Part shown: positions 4,033 through 63,636 of the stretch, in pieces
How positions within the stretch are numbered: the stretch's first letter is position 1
Layout: each line of letters opens with the position of its first letter
DNA from: Gossypium raimondii
Lineage: Eukaryota; Streptophyta; Magnoliopsida; Malvales; Malvaceae
Length of the DNA: 64,000 nt
Assembly: GCF_025698545.1 (NCBI RefSeq)
Contig: NC_068569.1
Location: forward strand, 2,108,001-2,172,000
Direction of reading: 5' to 3'
Made by a program: the position numbers and the translations under genes
The notes under the pieces: generated by a model
What the model saw: the letters and a program-made list of their open reading frames with translations, nothing else
Database searches by the model: none
Told to the model about the DNA's origin: nothing

Positions 4033-6551
4033 TTAGACATCATATTTTTTAGGTTGATGCCAGTGAGCCAAACTTCTCCCCAACGAGCCGAGGAGTGAGG
4101 CTTTGGGAGTGGCTGCTTTCTTTCCATATAAATGCTTCCCTCCAAGGTCTGTGAACTCTGGACCCTTGTCTTTGTTCCTTTCAATCTGCAGAGTAGCCAA
4201 ATACTGCTAAAGCTTTGAACAAATAAATGAAAAGCTTGTTATGAATAGCTAAGCCACAACTGTCATACCTTGTGTATCTTTCCATTCTTCAAGTTATATC
4301 GAATACCAGACCAATTTATAGTTTGAGAGAAATGCGACCAGAATGCAGAGATCGGGTATAGAAAATTATCAACCAGCATTGCAACAAAAATCTGCTCAAT
4401 CACAAAACAATTTGATTTATATTATCACATGCACGTAAGTATCTCTGATATCCAAGGTCTAGCTTAAATAATGACAAAGCAACGTGTTCAACTAGAAGTT
4501 TTCTTCATCACTCTGAACATATATACAGTTCTTGGGGGAACGGAAGTCTAACAACTCATTGCCATTACAGATATTAATGAGATGATAGAGGTGCTTCTTA
4601 CCATGCTCCAGTTGTAATAATCAAGTGAGAGCTTAGGTGCCTCTGGAGATAAAATGTTGCATAGTTGAACTTCAATCCTTGTTAAGTTCCACATAGAAAG
4701 TAGCTCCGTGAAGGTACATATAGCTAGCCAAATTGCCAATAACAATCCTGTGCAAACACAGTTCGGTTAGTACCAGGCGCTAAATTCAACTTTAATACCA
4801 TAGTATACTTCTCTAGCTTCCATTTTGTTGAACTGGATGCTTTACCAAATGAACTGCAACAAAATTTCTATCACGTTATGAGGTTACTGCTAGCATTTCT
4901 AGTTACAGAAGGCTAAAGAGTTATGCAACCCTGATATACAAGTATGTCTAAATTACTAAAAGTCCAATACGCAGAGGGCCAAGGGGAACTTGTAAATTAT
5001 CTGCATAACTCAGTACCGTCTCAGGCAGACAAAAAGTAAACACTTATTATACAAACACTTCCAAAACTATTATTGCCATCCAGGTAAGGACCTGAAGCAT
5101 TGGATTCATCTGAACTATTAATGCTACAACCTACCTAAAAAGGAAAAAGAGTGTGCTCACCACCAGAAGTACAGGTTGTTTCGCCATATGAATAACCTTT
5201 TATATAGATTTGTAGTGCTGCTGCAACATGAACCATAGCCATGAAGTACGGTGCAACAAATCCCCATGACAGATAGAAGTGGGTTAAAAACAGTGCTCTA
5301 TTCATTAGCCAATTAACCGTGCTTATATATGATTCCAAAACAAATGTTTGCTTCCTCAAGTAATTCCAGTACCTACTCAAGAGGTCAAAGTCAACATGGA
5401 TATAAATATAATAGAAAAGCTTAATGGTAACAACCACAAACCTTGAGAAAGTAAGATCACTTGCAATAGGATGAGGGAAAACAGCAACTGGAGGAGATGT
5501 AATAAGCCTCTTGTGGGCTCCTGAGAAGACACAATACACGAGCAGTGAGAAGGTTGCAAGTCTATGTACAAAGCTGCTATTCTAATATCAACAGAAATAT
5601 TGAATTTCTTATTGGTAAAAGATTTAGTAGAGGCTACAGTACCAGCTATAGCAGCTAGAGTCATATCATCGGAGTATCCACCATCTCGAAGTCCTGAGAC
5701 CACACCATAGTTATCATGTCTAAAATCATCAGCATGCATCTGAAAAACAATCTAGAAGAATCAGAAATAATTTTTCAACTTGGCACAGGAAGCACTGAGA
5801 AGGATAGGAAGAGCTACTTGCCATCATGCACCCTCCCCAAAGAAAAAATGTTTTCCCACCAGTAGCAAATCCCATTGAGCATGGCTGCAGAAGAGACATG
5901 CAATGAGTACATGAACTAAAGAATACAATAGTCAACTTATTTGAGAAAGATTAACATAGCACATGCAATATCAACTGCTAGACCATAGTTACGCATAAAA
6001 GCAAAAGTTTTTCCACTTATCATTTGTTTTTTTTTTTGCTGTGTGTGTGCGTTTTTTTTTTTTTTTGGGGGGGGGGGATTTGGCTTCACATCTTGGCCAA
6101 ATTCACATGATATAAACAGATGAGTATGTATAGTGCTCAAGTCTTGTTTGAACTTTCGGCTATGGAGTAAGTTAAACATGAAGCAGATATTCGCCAACTT
6201 GCTGCTGCTTTAGGATTTCAGTAAGTGTTTTCCTGTTGATTTCTGTGTGTTTAATCTTTTAGTAGGGGAACAAGGTTGTTTAGCTAGCATAATGCTTGTC
6301 TAGTAATCAACGGTTGCACCATATAACTGCATGATGGCAGATTGGGCAGTAGGACATGAATAAAACAGGGAGTCATAAACAAATGAGATATTGGAGTGCC
6401 TGACTGAAGCATTGATCAGAATTTATGTAATAATTCAACCATTAGCAAAGGGCTTACGGCAGAGTCCTAATATCTTTTGTTCTGGCTGTAGTCTTGTTCT
6501 GATAACAGGTTTTCCTCTGCTCTCTTAGATTAAAACAATGCCAGTGATCCA

Positions 6552-47638: not shown

Positions 47639-50600
47639 TCACTTCCAAACCTTAATAGCCCCATCTCTACCGCTTGAGATTAAGAGTCTCTGGTTTAATT
47701 TCACTGAAGCCAAAGAGAGGACAGAATCATGGTGGCATCCAGCAGAATCAGTGGCAGCAGCAGCAAGAACTGCTTTTGCTGTCAGCTTTGTTGTTAGAGG
47801 TCGTCTCTTTGTCTCCTGTTTATGAAAAGATAATAAATAAATATTAAAAGGGAACCCTAAATCATCAACTTTAAAAGACAAACAAAAACAGCAATAAAAG
47901 TTCCACAAGGCATGCTTGCTTTATAATATGAAAAGATAGTTGAGAGAATTTGCACAAAAAACATGATAGAAGACGAGAACAGCGATTCAAAAATGACATG
48001 GCTGACAACTTTAGCTTAGTAATTTGCCTAGTTTTCATTAAAAATTAACAGCTTTACTCCCTAAGGCTTTGCTAGGTAGAGACTAGAGAGGAAAGAAAAA
48101 TTGGAAAGATGGAAAATTCAAAGGGTAGAAAAACAGAACTTGGTAGGAAGGATGGAAAATTTGAAAGAAAAAGTTATCTTTCCATCCATTACTTGGTAGA
48201 GTTGACAAGTGAAAGGAAAGAAAATAAAACATTTGAAAATTGCATAATTTTGAACTAACATACACCTCTCCCTCATTTTCTCCCCTCTCGTCATTCCAAT
48301 TTAAAAAGATTGGTTTTTATGCATTAAGATGGAAAATAATCATCTCTCCTATTTTCTTTCCTCTCACTTTCCTTCCCTACCAAGCACAGTCAAATTTTAT
48401 TTTCTTTCCACTTTTCCATTCCTTCCTTCCTTCCGTCCCTCTACTATCCACCCAACCAAACACACCCTAAGTGACAAGTAATAAAAGCAAAATCCGTAAA
48501 TGAATATTTAAGAGAAGGAAAGGTAACTAAAAAACATAAGCCCCGGCAAAGAATAAGTTGTAAAGCAAGAAATTAAAGTTTCCCACGATAAGTTGAAGCT
48601 CTGACTAAAATAAAAAAGGATGCTTGTCTATCAGTAAGATACATTTCCATACTACTTACTACATTTGATCGAGATAGATAAATAGAAAACCGTTATCCAC
48701 AGTAACCCAACAAAAGTCTGAAAGGAAAACACATGAATGAAGTTTAACGTAAAGCTATCACTAAAAGATACCTGTACAACTTGTGCACCAAAACTTGATC
48801 TTGCTTCATAGAAATCATCATTTCCAACTCCCTTAAAATTTGGGCCACACATACAGTAACTTCTATCAGGGCTGCAATTAAAACAATGTAAATGATGAAT
48901 AAAATTCCATAAGATCACTGAACAAGGTTAGAAGAAAAAAGGAATTCGACAAAAACCTGAAATGGTCCCAGCGGCGAATTCTTAAGTCAGTGCCCCCAGT
49001 CAACAGATCACCACCAGGTAAAGGAAGTAATGAACGGATACCCGGAAGACGAGGAGGTGGTTCATTTAGTTCATCCACTCGATACCTTGGATTTGCATTC
49101 CTCCTCGGATCAGATTTAGAGCTTGTTTTAGCAGATGGCCTAGCCAATGCCCATGGTAAATCAGACATTTCTGCATCACTATCATAATTTGCAGCCCTAA
49201 ATACCTGGAGATAGAAATTGGAAGGAAAAAATTCAATCATGGTGAATGATAAGAACAAAACCAGTTTTCAATTCTCACTATAGAGAGCCAAATACAGGCT
49301 TTTTAATATCCCTTCAAATCAGTTTCCATTGTGCATAACCTCTAAAGAAGGTTTTAAAAAGATATAACTAGAACAATAATAACATCTCTTCCATTTTCTC
49401 CTAATGCAATTTGGAAGGAACCTCACTTTTCTATCCTACCAACCATGATAAAAACCCTTTTTCCACCTGCCCCTTTTCATCCTCAGAATGTTTTCTCCTA
49501 TCAAACACAGTTTTAATATAAAGCTACTGGAAAATTTTCTAATTATTGTTCCAAATACCACAATCATTTATTTCAATTATACATGCATTTAAAAATAGTA
49601 ATTCATAGAACAATAGCCTGTTTACCTGGTGGCAGGTCCCATTCTCTGCATTCCAAAGTGAGACTTCATTGCAGCCAGCAGCAACATAAATAAGAGGCCT
49701 AGCAGTTGTAGAAACTGAGACACTTGAAGGAGGGACAAAGAGACACATCTTTTCTACCGGGCATACAAGAGAATACTGCCATGAGTTCACCGGAATACGG
49801 AACCTCAAATCCCAAAGGGTAAGCACACCCCTAGAAGACCCTGAAACAAACCAGTTGCCGCAAGGGCCAGCTACCAGACACGATATATAGCCTTCCTCTG
49901 GAATTGCTTTCAGCGTCCATGCATTTGAACTTGATCTTGTATCCCAAAGATGAATACCACAATTTTGGGTGCTGTACATAAACGTTTGAATGCCACAGTT
50001 ATCTATGGGGTAGTTCAAAAGGGTAAGTATTGCACCTTCCTTCACATCCTTCTTTTTTATATCAGCGATACCTGAATACTTTTCAACAACATTTCCTAGA
50101 CCTTTAGAAATATGATCAACAGAAAACATATGTATTGTCCCATCGCAAGCTCCAACAACAACTTGGGCAGAGTTTCGGAGCATTGCAGTGCATAGTCCTC
50201 GGCTTCCTTCCAAGTGATAAGTCAGCCTCGACCTAAATGATATATCCTTCTCCAACTTTCTTGAATCCCACACTTTGACAGTGGAATCATCAGATGCACT
50301 CACAAAGAAACTGTGATCATTTGAAACTGCAATATCATTGACAGCAGATCGGTGCTCCTGCAGGTGTGCAACCAACACCCCACGAGGCCTCCAACCCGAA
50401 TCTGGAATTGATGAAGACCGAGAAAAAGAGGGTAGTCCGGTAAAATCAGTCGAAGTAGAAGCATCTTCCATTCTAACCGAACTTCCTTTCACTGTACCGG
50501 ATAATCCCATGTCTTGAAATTTACTATTAACATTGGCTATTTGATCATTTTCCCGACTTTCTGGTTCATGCACAACTCTGTAGAACTGTTTAGAACCGGC

Positions 50601-53600
50601 AGTTATACCAAAGGAGCCTGAAACAAGCTTAGGTGTTGGAACTGAACTAGCCAGGCTGAATGATTTACTAATTGGATCCATCCAAGGCAAAGGAGTATCA
50701 GAAGCTGCTGAAGGAGCTACCGTAGCTCGCTTGTCCATGCTAAAAGAGTACAAAGGTATACCTTCTGACGACTTATCACACATGAAACTATTTAAACCAT
50801 TGAGCTGCGGAGATGTTAAGCCTGAAAACTGTAACTTCTCTGAGCATAATGGATCATGCATGTCGATTGCACTAGAAGCATTACGTGTATTACACCCCAG
50901 TGCTCTCAGCTTGGCATCGTCATCAGCAACTTCTGTTAGCCCTGATTGCTGCAAGACACTATCAATAGGTCTATGACTTCCATTAGACTGTTGTTTCTCA
51001 GACCAATACTTCATTGAGTCTAATTCCCCAGTCCCTCTCTCGAGTAAATCAGCAATTTCCCATTGTTTAGATTGTGCTGATGAATTGTACCATATCTTTC
51101 TCTGTCTCTCCAACATATCAGAACTTCTAGCATTTTGTAAGACTTCATAAAATACTTCCCTTGAGACTGGTGGCTTCAGACAAGAAAGAAGAGCCTTTTC
51201 AAAGTCCAGAGATGCAGGTTGTCGACGTAGGAAAGGCTGTATAACTGGAGCAAGAAAAACGTAAGAATCTACAGCTCCCAAGCACTCACTGCTAGATGCA
51301 AGGAAAGTGACAACTGACCTCCTTACCCATTGACTAGGATAACATAGCAATGGAAAAGAACGCTCTATCATTTCAATCAATATTCTTTTCCGCAAAAAAC
51401 CACTTTTGCACAGAACGGCCAAACAATCCAGCGCATTGACAATAACAGCCTCTATTGCATCACCTAAAGCCTGCTCAATATAAGGTAAAAGATATTCCTC
51501 TACACTTCGTTGGCCCACAAAGAAGCAGACAAACACAATTTGCCCATAGAACACTGCCCTTAGCTGCTCATCTCTATCATTCAAAAAAGCTGGAAGTATG
51601 GGCAACAAAAAGTCATTGCTCTGTCGCTGGCCAAAAAAGCAGCATAAGTTGCCAATGTCCTGAAGGAGTGCTCTTCTAATGTTTGGAGTTTGCTTTTGAC
51701 CCATTACAAGTTCCTGTACTACCTCAGCAATCAACTTCCTCAATTGGCCTAACTGTGCATCACTGTTTGACCTCTGCATACGCCCAGATGACTCACCAGA
51801 TGACGCTAATGACTTCTGTGGCAAATTCGTTTCATTAAGAACCCCAGCCTCACTAAGCCTTATTGAATGAATCAAGAATCCATAAGCTGTTAGAGCCAGC
51901 TTAGCTATATTGCTTGCATAACAAATTCTCACACTTTCCTCTGGATCATCAGGAAGCATGGAAAGCATTGGAAGAATATACTCCGGAAAAATTTTGGCAT
52001 CGCTTGGAGGAAATTCTCGAACTAAGGGCAGAATGTCACACAAAGTCTCAAGGGCAGCACACCGCACAATTGCCGCTGGGTCTGAAAGCATTGCAATTAC
52101 ATACGGAAGCACTCGCTGCAAGCGATCTTCATCATCGATGTATAGTGAAGAAGTCTTCAGCAAAAGTATAGCCCCTCTCCTTAAGTGAGGCAACTTAACG
52201 TTACGTATGCAAGAACAAAGCAGAGAGGCGACTAGCACCATCCCTTCACATTTCATACTGTCTTGAGGTAAAGGCAGAAAAGGCATTCCGAACGTGTCTG
52301 ATTGACTGTCATAGTCAGACATCAATGAGTTTAAATCATCCATGGTAATCTTTTTTAAAAAAGGGTGATCATTTTTCCTAAACAAATCAGAAATATTTTG
52401 ATGAAGGACAGGAGATTGCATGCCATGTTGTTTAAAATCTTGGGAAAGTTCATATTTAGGTGCATCCCCTCTTGTTGACTTCTCCCCAAGGTAATGATTG
52501 CTCTGTTCAACATCCCCAAGTAGGGTATTAATGTTTCCAGGAAGCTTGAACTGATCCCTAATAGAAGCATTATCTATCTTTTCTCTTTTTGTCAACAAGT
52601 GATTTGCTGAGCTTAACTTTTGTTTTGGAGCAATCTCTTCTGACTGTTGTTTTGCAACAATTTCTTGCGACAAATGACCACTTAAGGTATGTGACTTGCC
52701 AAGTCCTTTTCCCATCTCATCACTTGACCTCTTGCTCATCATTTGCTTCAGCATCTCAGGGAACACTCTCTGGCACATTGCAATCTACAGTAGAATTACA
52801 GAGCAGGAATGCATATATTAGATGCAAGAAGGATAGATTTTCCAAGTTCCAAATTAAAAATATGTTTACCCTCATATCAGAATGAAGAGGATTCCAGCAA
52901 CGATAAAATCCGTGCAGAAATGGGGAGAAGTAGCTAGGAAATACAGCAGCTACATAATTCTGTAGATAACTTTCAGCAGATAGGCGAGACTCTGGTTCAA
53001 GTTGGATCATATGAAGTATCATCTTGCGTACTCCAATATCTGGGATCTGCACATGCAGTGCATATTATTAGAAAAGAAAGTTAAGTATGAATTGAATTTA
53101 ACAAGAAGAAAGTAAGAATAATTCTTACGACTAACAAGAATAGCACTGCTAGTAGTCTTGTGCAGGAAAATGAATAGCAGCAATAAGATCAAATAAAACT
53201 CAATATGAAGAAGGAAAATCAGTGGAAAGGGATAGCAAGTGCATCAGGCAGAAAGGCAGGGAAGGAAATTAGCACCTTTTCAAGATGTTGACTAGGATCA
53301 TATTGCCCTCTGCGATATGCAAGAAGCTGAGAGAGTTCAAACAGCGGCTGGCCCTCAAGGAAAAGCTCAGCAATTACACATCTAAACAGTGGCATAGCAA
53401 GTGTATATTATTATATTGTTGGACAAAAATGATATGGTATTTACATTTTGTTAAAAACTATATCGAAACCACTATTTCACATGAAAGATCAAACTATATC
53501 AAAAACACTCGCAAACCAAAAAGTAACAAAATTTCACAGCAATCACATCTGGCAGATTATCATTACTTCACTAGAAGACTGAACATCAGGCAATACCACT

Positions 53601-57895: not shown

Positions 57896-58334
57896 TAGAG
57901 GTGCTCATGGGCCGGGCCCAGAAAAAATTTCGGCCTGGGTCCTAGGCCCGGGCCCGGCCCGAAATATGGGCCTGGAAATTTGCCCATGCCCGGCCCGGCC
58001 CGTTTTTAAAATAAATAACAAAATTTTATTTTAAAATTTAAAACAAAAAATTAAAAAAAGTATTTTAAAAATATTTTAAAATTAAAAAAATTTAAAAAAT
58101 TAAAAAATTAAAAAAGAGTATTTTAAAAGTATTTTAAAATTAAAAAAATAAAAATATTTATTATATTCGGGCCGGGCCCGGGCCAAAAAAGTGGTGCCCG
58201 AGGCTCGGCCCGTTTTTTAATAGGGCCTCGTTTTTTTGCCCAAACCCATATTTCGAGCCTATATTTTTACCCAAACCCTCCCATATTTCGAGCGGGCCGT
58301 CGGACCGGGCCGCCCCGGCCCATGAGCACCTCTA
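57896..58334. mobile_element. hAT-type MITE, 439 bp, GC-rich inverted ends, 8-bp target-site duplication
   Basis: The left end TAGAGGTGCTCATGGGCCGG has an exact inverse at the right end (CCGGCCCATGAGCACCTCTA). ATGGTAGG directly flanks both sides (57888-57895 and 58335-58342). Outer arms of about 100 bp are very GC-rich with nested GGGCCCGGGCC-type palindromes, around an almost pure A/T core. It has no coding capacity. An 8-bp duplication with a TA-start terminus places it in the hAT superfamily. Exact ends and duplication indicate a comparatively young insertion. Confidence 0.93.
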
Positions 58335-58419
58335 ATGGTAGGTTGGAGGTCCAAAAAATATTAAACTCAAAAGCTTATATATAAAGAGTCACAATTTTTA
58401 ACTTAACCCAATGAGAACT

Positions 58420-58946
58420 TGTTATATATTGGTAATTGCCGACTTGAATCCTAGAAATAATTTAGGCCTCTGACCCACAACTTGAACGAGTCTCACAACA
58501 AAGTGAGTTCATAAGTACAGTTCGCTAGGAGAGCTCACAAATACAGTTCTCTAGAGGATCCGCAGGAACAGCTTGGAATATAGGGTCGCAAATCAAGCTT
58601 GCAAGAATCCAAAAAAGGCCATGGTTTCAGTTCCATACATCCAAGGGACTCGCAGACAATGCCACTTGCCCTACAGGCCACCATGACATGTGTCCAGTAA
58701 GTATGGAGCCTACCCAGGGTATTAGCCCCAGGAGTAAAAAAGATTGTGTGCTTCGTAAACATGTGTCCAACAGGCCTGGAGCTCGCAAAATGTCAATACC
58801 AGGAGCAGGGAATGTCAGCGCTGGAGGCCATAGAGCCAAGACAAAGTAGGTGGTCCTTGTTATGAGCTGTAATAGTATTAGCGACAACATGCATAAATAC
58901 CACGACATTCCTATCAATAAAAATACGAGCAAAATATTACTCAACA
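58420..58946. repeat. Left LTR of the miniature element
   Basis: A 527-bp direct repeat partner of 58993-59520. Shared landmarks include CATGGTTTCAGTTC, CAGGAGCAGGGAATGTCAGC, GTTATGAGCTGTAATAGTA and CCTATCAATAAAAATA. The last, an AATAAA near the end, is a plausible retroelement polyadenylation signal. Confidence 0.88.
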
Positions 58947-58992
58947 ATTGGTGTGGTAATACTCAATAGGCCCACTAAGAGGGGGACTAGAT

Positions 58993-59520
58993 TGTTATAC
59001 ATTAGTATTCGCTAACCCGAATCCTATAAAGGATTTAGGCCTTCGACCTACAACCCGAACGAGTCCCGCAGCAAGGCAAGTTCGCAAGTGCAGTTCACAA
59101 TGAGAGCTCACAGATACAAATCGCTGAGGGGTTTACGAAAACAGCTTGGAAGATAAGGTCACTGATCTAGCTCGCAAGAATCCAGATAAGACCATGGTTT
59201 CAGTTCGCGTACGTCCAAGGGACTTGTAGACAGGACCACTAGCCCTACAACCCACCATGACGCATGTCCAACAAGTACAGAGCCCACCCAAGGTATCAGC
59301 CCCATGAGCATAAAAGACTGCGTGCTCCGTAGACACGTGTTCAATAGGCTTGGAGCTCATAGAATGTCAAAACCAGGAGCAGGGAATGTCAGCGCAGGAG
59401 ACAATTGAGCCAAGACAAAGTAGGTGACCACTGTTATGAGCTGTAATAGTACCAGTGACAACATATATAAATACCTCGACCTTCCTATCAATAAAAATAT
59501 GAGCAAAATATTACTCAACA
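58993..59520. repeat. Right LTR of the miniature element
   Basis: A 528-bp copy of the left LTR, with substitutions and small indels scattered evenly along its length. Confidence 0.88.
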
Positions 59521-59525
59521 GAACT

Positions 59526-60791: not shown

Positions 60792-63636
<2,845 letters not shown>

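Follow-up and report, generated by a model that had tools for sequence, protein, structure and literature searches.

The LTR pair described here is very probably the internally deleted remnant of one old Ty3/gypsy insertion that was primed by tRNA-Phe and that lost its interior after insertion. It lies in a window of 64,000 nucleotides (C5:2108001-2172000), the whole stretch of DNA that was analysed, and the genome searched was the 750.8-Mb assembly of 281 contigs. Of the two readings offered in the original prediction, the internal-deletion product was supported, as the interior consists of fused family ends; the distinct miniature family was not, as the genome searches found the junction a single time. 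Rather than a complete family member, the element is a deletion derivative, an ordinary piece of genome decay. It neatly illustrates how an old LTR retrotransposon that has been deleted internally can come to look like a miniature element, and it warns that an LTR pair, a duplication and a tiny interior are insufficient for calling a TRIM family.

Anatomy of the element and composition of its interior

The two LTRs (527 bp for LTR1 and 528 bp for LTR2) both have TG...CA ends and are separated by 46 bp, and the whole element, with its two LTRs included, measures 1,101 bp (Table 1). The coordinates, the LTR lengths and ends, the 46-bp interior, the GAACT on both flanks and the purine tract had all been predicted and were confirmed on the sequence. 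With the local composition, the chance of a 5-bp flank match is about 0.002. LTR1 and LTR2 are 80.5% identical over 527 aligned columns, with 80 transitions, 23 transversions and 1 gap column (K2P 0.236; BLAST E = 1.5e-138 within the window), and in a window-wide blastn search (E up to 0.1) each LTR matched only itself and its partner. Conservation is better in the 3' part of the LTRs, a weak trend (dispersion permutation p 0.034). No gag-pol can fit the 46-bp interior. As the element has two LTRs, it is not a solo LTR; a tRNA gene inside it was ruled out by the count of 0 tRNA genes in the window, and a known structured RNA in the LTRs by an Rfam gathering search of the whole window that gave 0 matches.

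Table 1. Positions of the parts of the element in the window, and of the related copies elsewhere in the genome.
Feature	Position and length	Strand	Evidence
Target-site duplication, left copy GAACT	58415..58419	+	5/5 identical to right copy
5' LTR (LTR1), TG...CA	58420..58946, 527 bp	+	80.5% identity to LTR2; the two LTRs group as sisters, 93/84
Primer-site-end stump: AT and first 11 nt of the 18-nt tRNA-Phe primer-binding site	58947..58959	+	9/11 match; family-end alignments
Deletion junction, TAA common to both ends	58957..58959	+	End alignments; partial matches from either side
3' interior-end stump: polypurine tract AAGAGGGGGA, then CTAGAT	58960..58992	+	Same kind of end in 11/26 relatives
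3' LTR (LTR2), TG...CA	58993..59520, 528 bp	+	Alignment to LTR1; LTR tree
Target-site duplication, right copy GAACT	59521..59525	+	Directly outside LTR2
C9 copy, both LTRs	11,963 bp		Flanks 4/5 alike
C1 copy, both LTRs	C1:13393879-13407266, 13,388 bp		Flanks 5/5 alike, match inside TA repeat
C3 copy, both LTRs	18,368 bp		Flanks 4/5 alike
C13 copy, both LTRs	C13:17181261-17191054, 9,794 bp		Flanks 5/5 alike
Apparently split subfamily LTR, C13	L038:3057-3344 and L040:1866-2130		Insertion ends TATTGGGAAA...TTTCCCAACA; duplication CATGA

To determine the origin of the interior, ATTGGTGTGGTAATACTCAATAGGCCCACTAAGAGGGGGACTAGAT, its two ends were compared with those of genome relatives. The whole-element search gave at least 45 matches, with 40 of 220 candidates scored; the 44 non-focal ones, of which five are apparently second pieces of other matches in the set, yielded 29 loci that were cut out and compared; some elements are represented among these loci by both of their LTRs. 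Two bases past the LTR (these bases are mostly AT), 12 of the 29 relatives carry TGGTGCGGTGAGCGTGGA, with agreement at 14-18 of its 18 positions. This sequence is the complement of the tRNA-Phe 3' end, which was tested against the genome: the 20-nt genomic form of the tRNA end occurs at 19 genome places (0 for the reversed-pattern control), and ARAGORN placed a tRNA-Phe(GAA) gene at 11 of the 15 fetched loci with that tRNA end and at none of the other 4. The primer of the family is tRNA-Phe(GAA). The LTR end together with the primer site was found at 115 genome places within 3 mismatches, these being places and not proven family members, and the reversed-pattern control gave 0. The element had been described as having no recognisable tRNA primer site, which is wrong in detail: the site is cut short, with the first 11 nt of 18 left, 9 of them matching, and the remaining 7 lost. 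A limited literature search for a plant Ty3 element primed by tRNA-Phe turned up only work on mammalian endogenous retroviruses; we claim no novelty. One of the tRNA loci, L062 (near C5:53686800), carries seven tRNA-Phe(GAA) genes within one 3-kb stretch, mostly 141 bp apart.

At the other end, the purine tract AAGAGGGGGA stops 6 nt upstream of LTR2. A common kind of polypurine end precedes the LTR start in 11 of 26 relatives, as judged by eye from the alignment listing (CACTTTGTAACACTCCTTAGGCACACTAGGAGGGGGACTAGAT in L028 is an example). The 3' comparison comprises 26 relatives because the LTR start was not located in L004, L018 and L021; LTR starts were placed by a motif list and a few (e.g. 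that of L016) may be off.

The interior agrees with the 5' ends of 12 relatives at 9-13 of 13 positions per relative (13/13 for L021), and at interior positions 14-16 with 0/12 of them. From about position 13 on it follows the family 3' end, with a local score of 49, where none of 500 shuffles exceeded 23. The 13 nt of the 5' side are assigned by their fixed place beside the LTR, as their local score (26, against a shuffled maximum of 25) is by itself not beyond the shuffles. The two agreements meet at position 13, and the alignments show the interior, at the level of sequence, to be the family primer-site end (13 nt) fused to the polypurine end (33 nt). The join has a microhomology of 3-4 nt: TAA or TRA is common to both ends, and GTAA when L021 and L028 are compared.

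LTR tree, age and parent family

A maximum-likelihood tree was built from 29 LTR rows, with L018 and L021 left out and L004 and L028 entered as part LTRs. LTR1 and LTR2 are sisters in it (support 93/84) and form one group in 92% of 200 bootstrap trees; together they sit in a small subfamily with L002, L003, L004 and L028 (100/100). Four other LTR pairs served as a yardstick, of which L005/L022 and L006/L019 are sisters and L008/L010 and L017/L026 fall in unresolved forks of the same clade. Because LTR1 and LTR2 group together in the tree, the pair is most simply read as one insertion.

This grouping also bears on the weakest alternative, in which a tandem or segmental duplication, or recombination between two different insertions, would mimic an LTR pair. 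The distance between LTR1 and LTR2 (K2P 0.236) is about as large as that to L002 and L003 of the same subfamily (0.239-0.280), as such an origin would allow; it is nevertheless barely credible, the recombinant being rejected on the LTR tree and the tandem duplication on the primer stump and polypurine tract standing in their right places. The GAACT at both flanks also speaks against this alternative.

The presence of 1 gap against 103 substitutions between the LTRs was dropped as an oddity. Four other LTR pairs of the family, which are of similar age (K2P 0.171-0.230), have 0-1 gap events each against 81-104 substitutions, which makes a low indel count normal in this family. The LTR alignment that had been proposed for dating the insertion gave the K2P of 0.236 reported above. 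At a substitution rate of 7e-9, this distance corresponds to an age of 16.9 My, and at the slowest rate tried, 3.5e-9, to 33.7 My. At an assumed 1.3e-8, given in an excerpt of PMC7251063 as the rate quoted for grasses, the age is 9.1 My. Under the assumed rates, the insertion would be about 9-17 My old.

The LTRs of the element are assigned by their sequence relationships to an old Ty3/gypsy family. Its four copies that keep both LTRs are 9.8-18.4 kb long (Table 1), and some of these lengths probably include later insertions. Their open frames were scanned separately. The C1 copy has, in element order, gag (E 0.005), RT pieces, RNase H, an integrase zinc domain and SH3 (E 0.00016), the gag and SH3 matches being weak and below the Pfam cut-off. 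RT before integrase is the Ty3/gypsy order. RT pieces were also found in the C13 copy, and the C3 copy contains an aspartyl-protease frame and an integrase zinc piece that may come from a nested element. Many other kin frames that were scanned, including every scanned frame of the C9 copy, gave no match.

The expectation that copies with gag-pol interiors would identify the parent held in part: such copies were found and give the family, but they belong to other subfamilies and are not the direct parent. The 5' LTR of the C9 copy (L005) lies at K2P 0.42-0.43 from the focal LTRs, and the other copies fall in the same outside groups of the tree, so that the kin identify the family and not the direct parent. 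Among the genome relatives compared, we found none that belongs to the immediate subfamily and also has a coding interior. Of that subfamily, L002 (C8) looks like a solo LTR, with flanks 4/5 alike, and L004 and L028 appear to be the two parts of a single LTR interrupted by a 17.9-kb insertion that is flanked by CATGA. Within this insertion, L039:8199-9511 (-) holds two open frames matching viral movement protein (PF01107) and DUF7588, which resemble endogenous caulimovirus-type material.

A further relative, at C4:41061969-41064052 (L074:470-2553), consists of a 473-bp 5' LTR, about 1.46 kb of interior and a 3' LTR reduced to its final ~145 bp (93% identical); its flanks, AGATT/AAATT, are 4/5 alike. 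This C4 copy is another deletion derivative, in a form not expected from transposition. Two other arrangements were seen in the fetched loci. In the C9 copy, a 60-nt LTR-start fragment (L033:4249-4308, minus strand), seen in L005, L033 and L051, follows a family polypurine end; it lies 1.07 kb past the 5' LTR in the same orientation and is possibly a second, broken 3' end. At L075:3144-3680 (-) and 4314-4734 (+), two family LTRs, 83% alike, stand 633 bp apart in opposite orientation.

Deletion of the interior and alternative origins

To determine whether the junction occurs elsewhere, the genome was searched with the LTR and with the interior, as had been suggested, and no second junction copy was found. 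All 11 matches of a 106-bp query across the interior were scored, and one, the element itself, spans the join; nine cover the 3' side alone, starting at interior positions 10-22, and one (C10) covers the 5' side alone, stopping at interior position 11. The pattern ACTCAACAATTGGTN{10,40}TGTTAT occurs once genome-wide, as the element itself, and a second pattern, for a short interior with an unchanged primer site, has 0 occurrences; both allow no mismatch, so that degraded instances of the junction may have escaped them. A search with the first 271 bp of LTR1 gave at least four genome places, namely both own LTRs and two on C13, a lower bound since this search missed the related solo LTR L002.

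As the anatomy shows, a Ty3/gypsy member primed by tRNA-Phe inserted at this site and gave the 5-bp duplication GAACT. We propose that a deletion then took the interior from position 13 to 33 bp upstream of the 3' LTR, joining the primer-site stump to the polypurine-tract stump at the 3-4 nt of microhomology; we infer both its timing and the repair pathway. It probably arose by illegitimate recombination, through error-prone repair of a break. The LTRs of the remnant have decayed to about 80% identity. We infer that the deletion took place after integration rather than before it, because the searches found a single instance of the junction, part of the primer site is gone, and the C4 copy lost its interior and most of its 3' LTR.

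Devos et al. 2002 reportedly described internally deleted LTR retrotransposons arising through illegitimate recombination in plants. In PMC1940013 and PMC12557855, illegitimate recombination at microhomologies is described for plants. The truncated plant LTR-retrotransposon copies treated there and in a portion of PMC7251063 resemble the element in junction microhomology, lost interior, old age and a junction found once. Unlike them, the element has kept two complete LTRs, and its deletion extends almost exactly from the primer site to the polypurine tract, so that the remnant imitates a tiny whole element.

A deletion during reverse transcription is the alternative that survives best, and we hold it to be rather unlikely. 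A jump of the polymerase between the primer-site end and the polypurine end would have given a 1.1-kb cDNA, which would have integrated unchanged with a full-length element helping in trans. The perfect LTR ends, the matching duplication and the kept primer stump and polypurine tract are compatible with these steps, and the 3-4 nt microhomology also fits a template switch. The available text of PMC1940013 points in both directions: in two rice families, truncated copies sharing a deletion seem to have been amplified, but the insertion of truncated copies is, to the knowledge of its authors, undescribed. Against a reverse-transcription origin also stand the failure of the 106-bp query and the two patterns to find another copy with the junction, the loss of 7 of the 18 primer-site bases and of any packaging signal outside the LTRs, and the C4 copy, which lost its interior and part of an LTR, so that post-insertion deletion probably occurs in this family. 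If the deletion did precede integration, the element would help to define the smallest interior compatible with integration. It is unlikely that the 1.1-kb element itself moved, its RNA or cDNA, already deleted internally and left with only 11 nt of primer site plus the polypurine tract, being reverse-transcribed and integrated with help in trans; if true, this would show how little interior Ty3/gypsy needs.

The anatomy observed here, with two LTRs, a duplication and almost no interior, would fit a mobile TRIM-like family of miniature elements that combine long LTRs with a 46-bp interior. We find such a family very improbable and rejected it on the junction being found once, by the query and by the first pattern, and at no place by the second. 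Among 58 fetched loci (five being the focal place again and some others overlapping), same-orientation neighbouring LTR pieces elsewhere occur only in the C9 fragment and the C4 copy (L014, interior 1.46 kb), and the junction of the element is absent from both.

Resemblance to miniature elements, and neighbouring features

TRIMs and SMARTs, as presented in portions of PMC4717578 and PMC3281118, are like the element in having LTRs, a 5-bp duplication, no retrotransposon genes and a size of about 1 kb. The criteria given in an excerpt of PMC4717578 are a TSD of 4-6 bp, small size and no retrotransposon proteins, with >77% of TRIMs being <1,000 bp; the element has a 5-bp TSD, no coding interior and a total of 1,101 bp. 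TRIMs are families of copies, whereas here one copy was found, with LTRs of 527 bp and an interior of 46 bp, and the LTR length of 100-250 bp given for TRIMs in the original prediction contrasts with 527/528 bp. The same paper lists three TRIM families for Gossypium raimondii. Other counterparts are the Ty3/gypsy copies on C13 and C1 of the same genome, which have LTRs, the start of a tRNA-Phe primer site, a polypurine end and 5-bp duplications in common with it. They differ in their size (9.8 and 13.4 kb), in the decayed gag-pol pieces that they kept and in belonging to other subfamilies.

Other features were noted in the window. A 1081-aa open frame at 49539-52784 (-) matches VPS15-like helical and WD40 domains, and none of the seven minus-strand frames scanned from 52.7 to 55.6 kb has a Pfam match. 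At 62144-62280, a 68-bp unit in two perfect tandem copies lies just upstream of a frame (62335-62619) matching an arginyl-type class I tRNA synthetase. Finally, a 439-bp element at 57896-58334, 80 bp upstream of the left GAACT, has perfect inverted ends of 21 bp, TAGAGGTGCTCATGGGCCGGG, and is flanked by an 8-bp duplication, ATGGTAGG; from these inverted ends and the 8-bp duplication it is presumably a hAT-type MITE.
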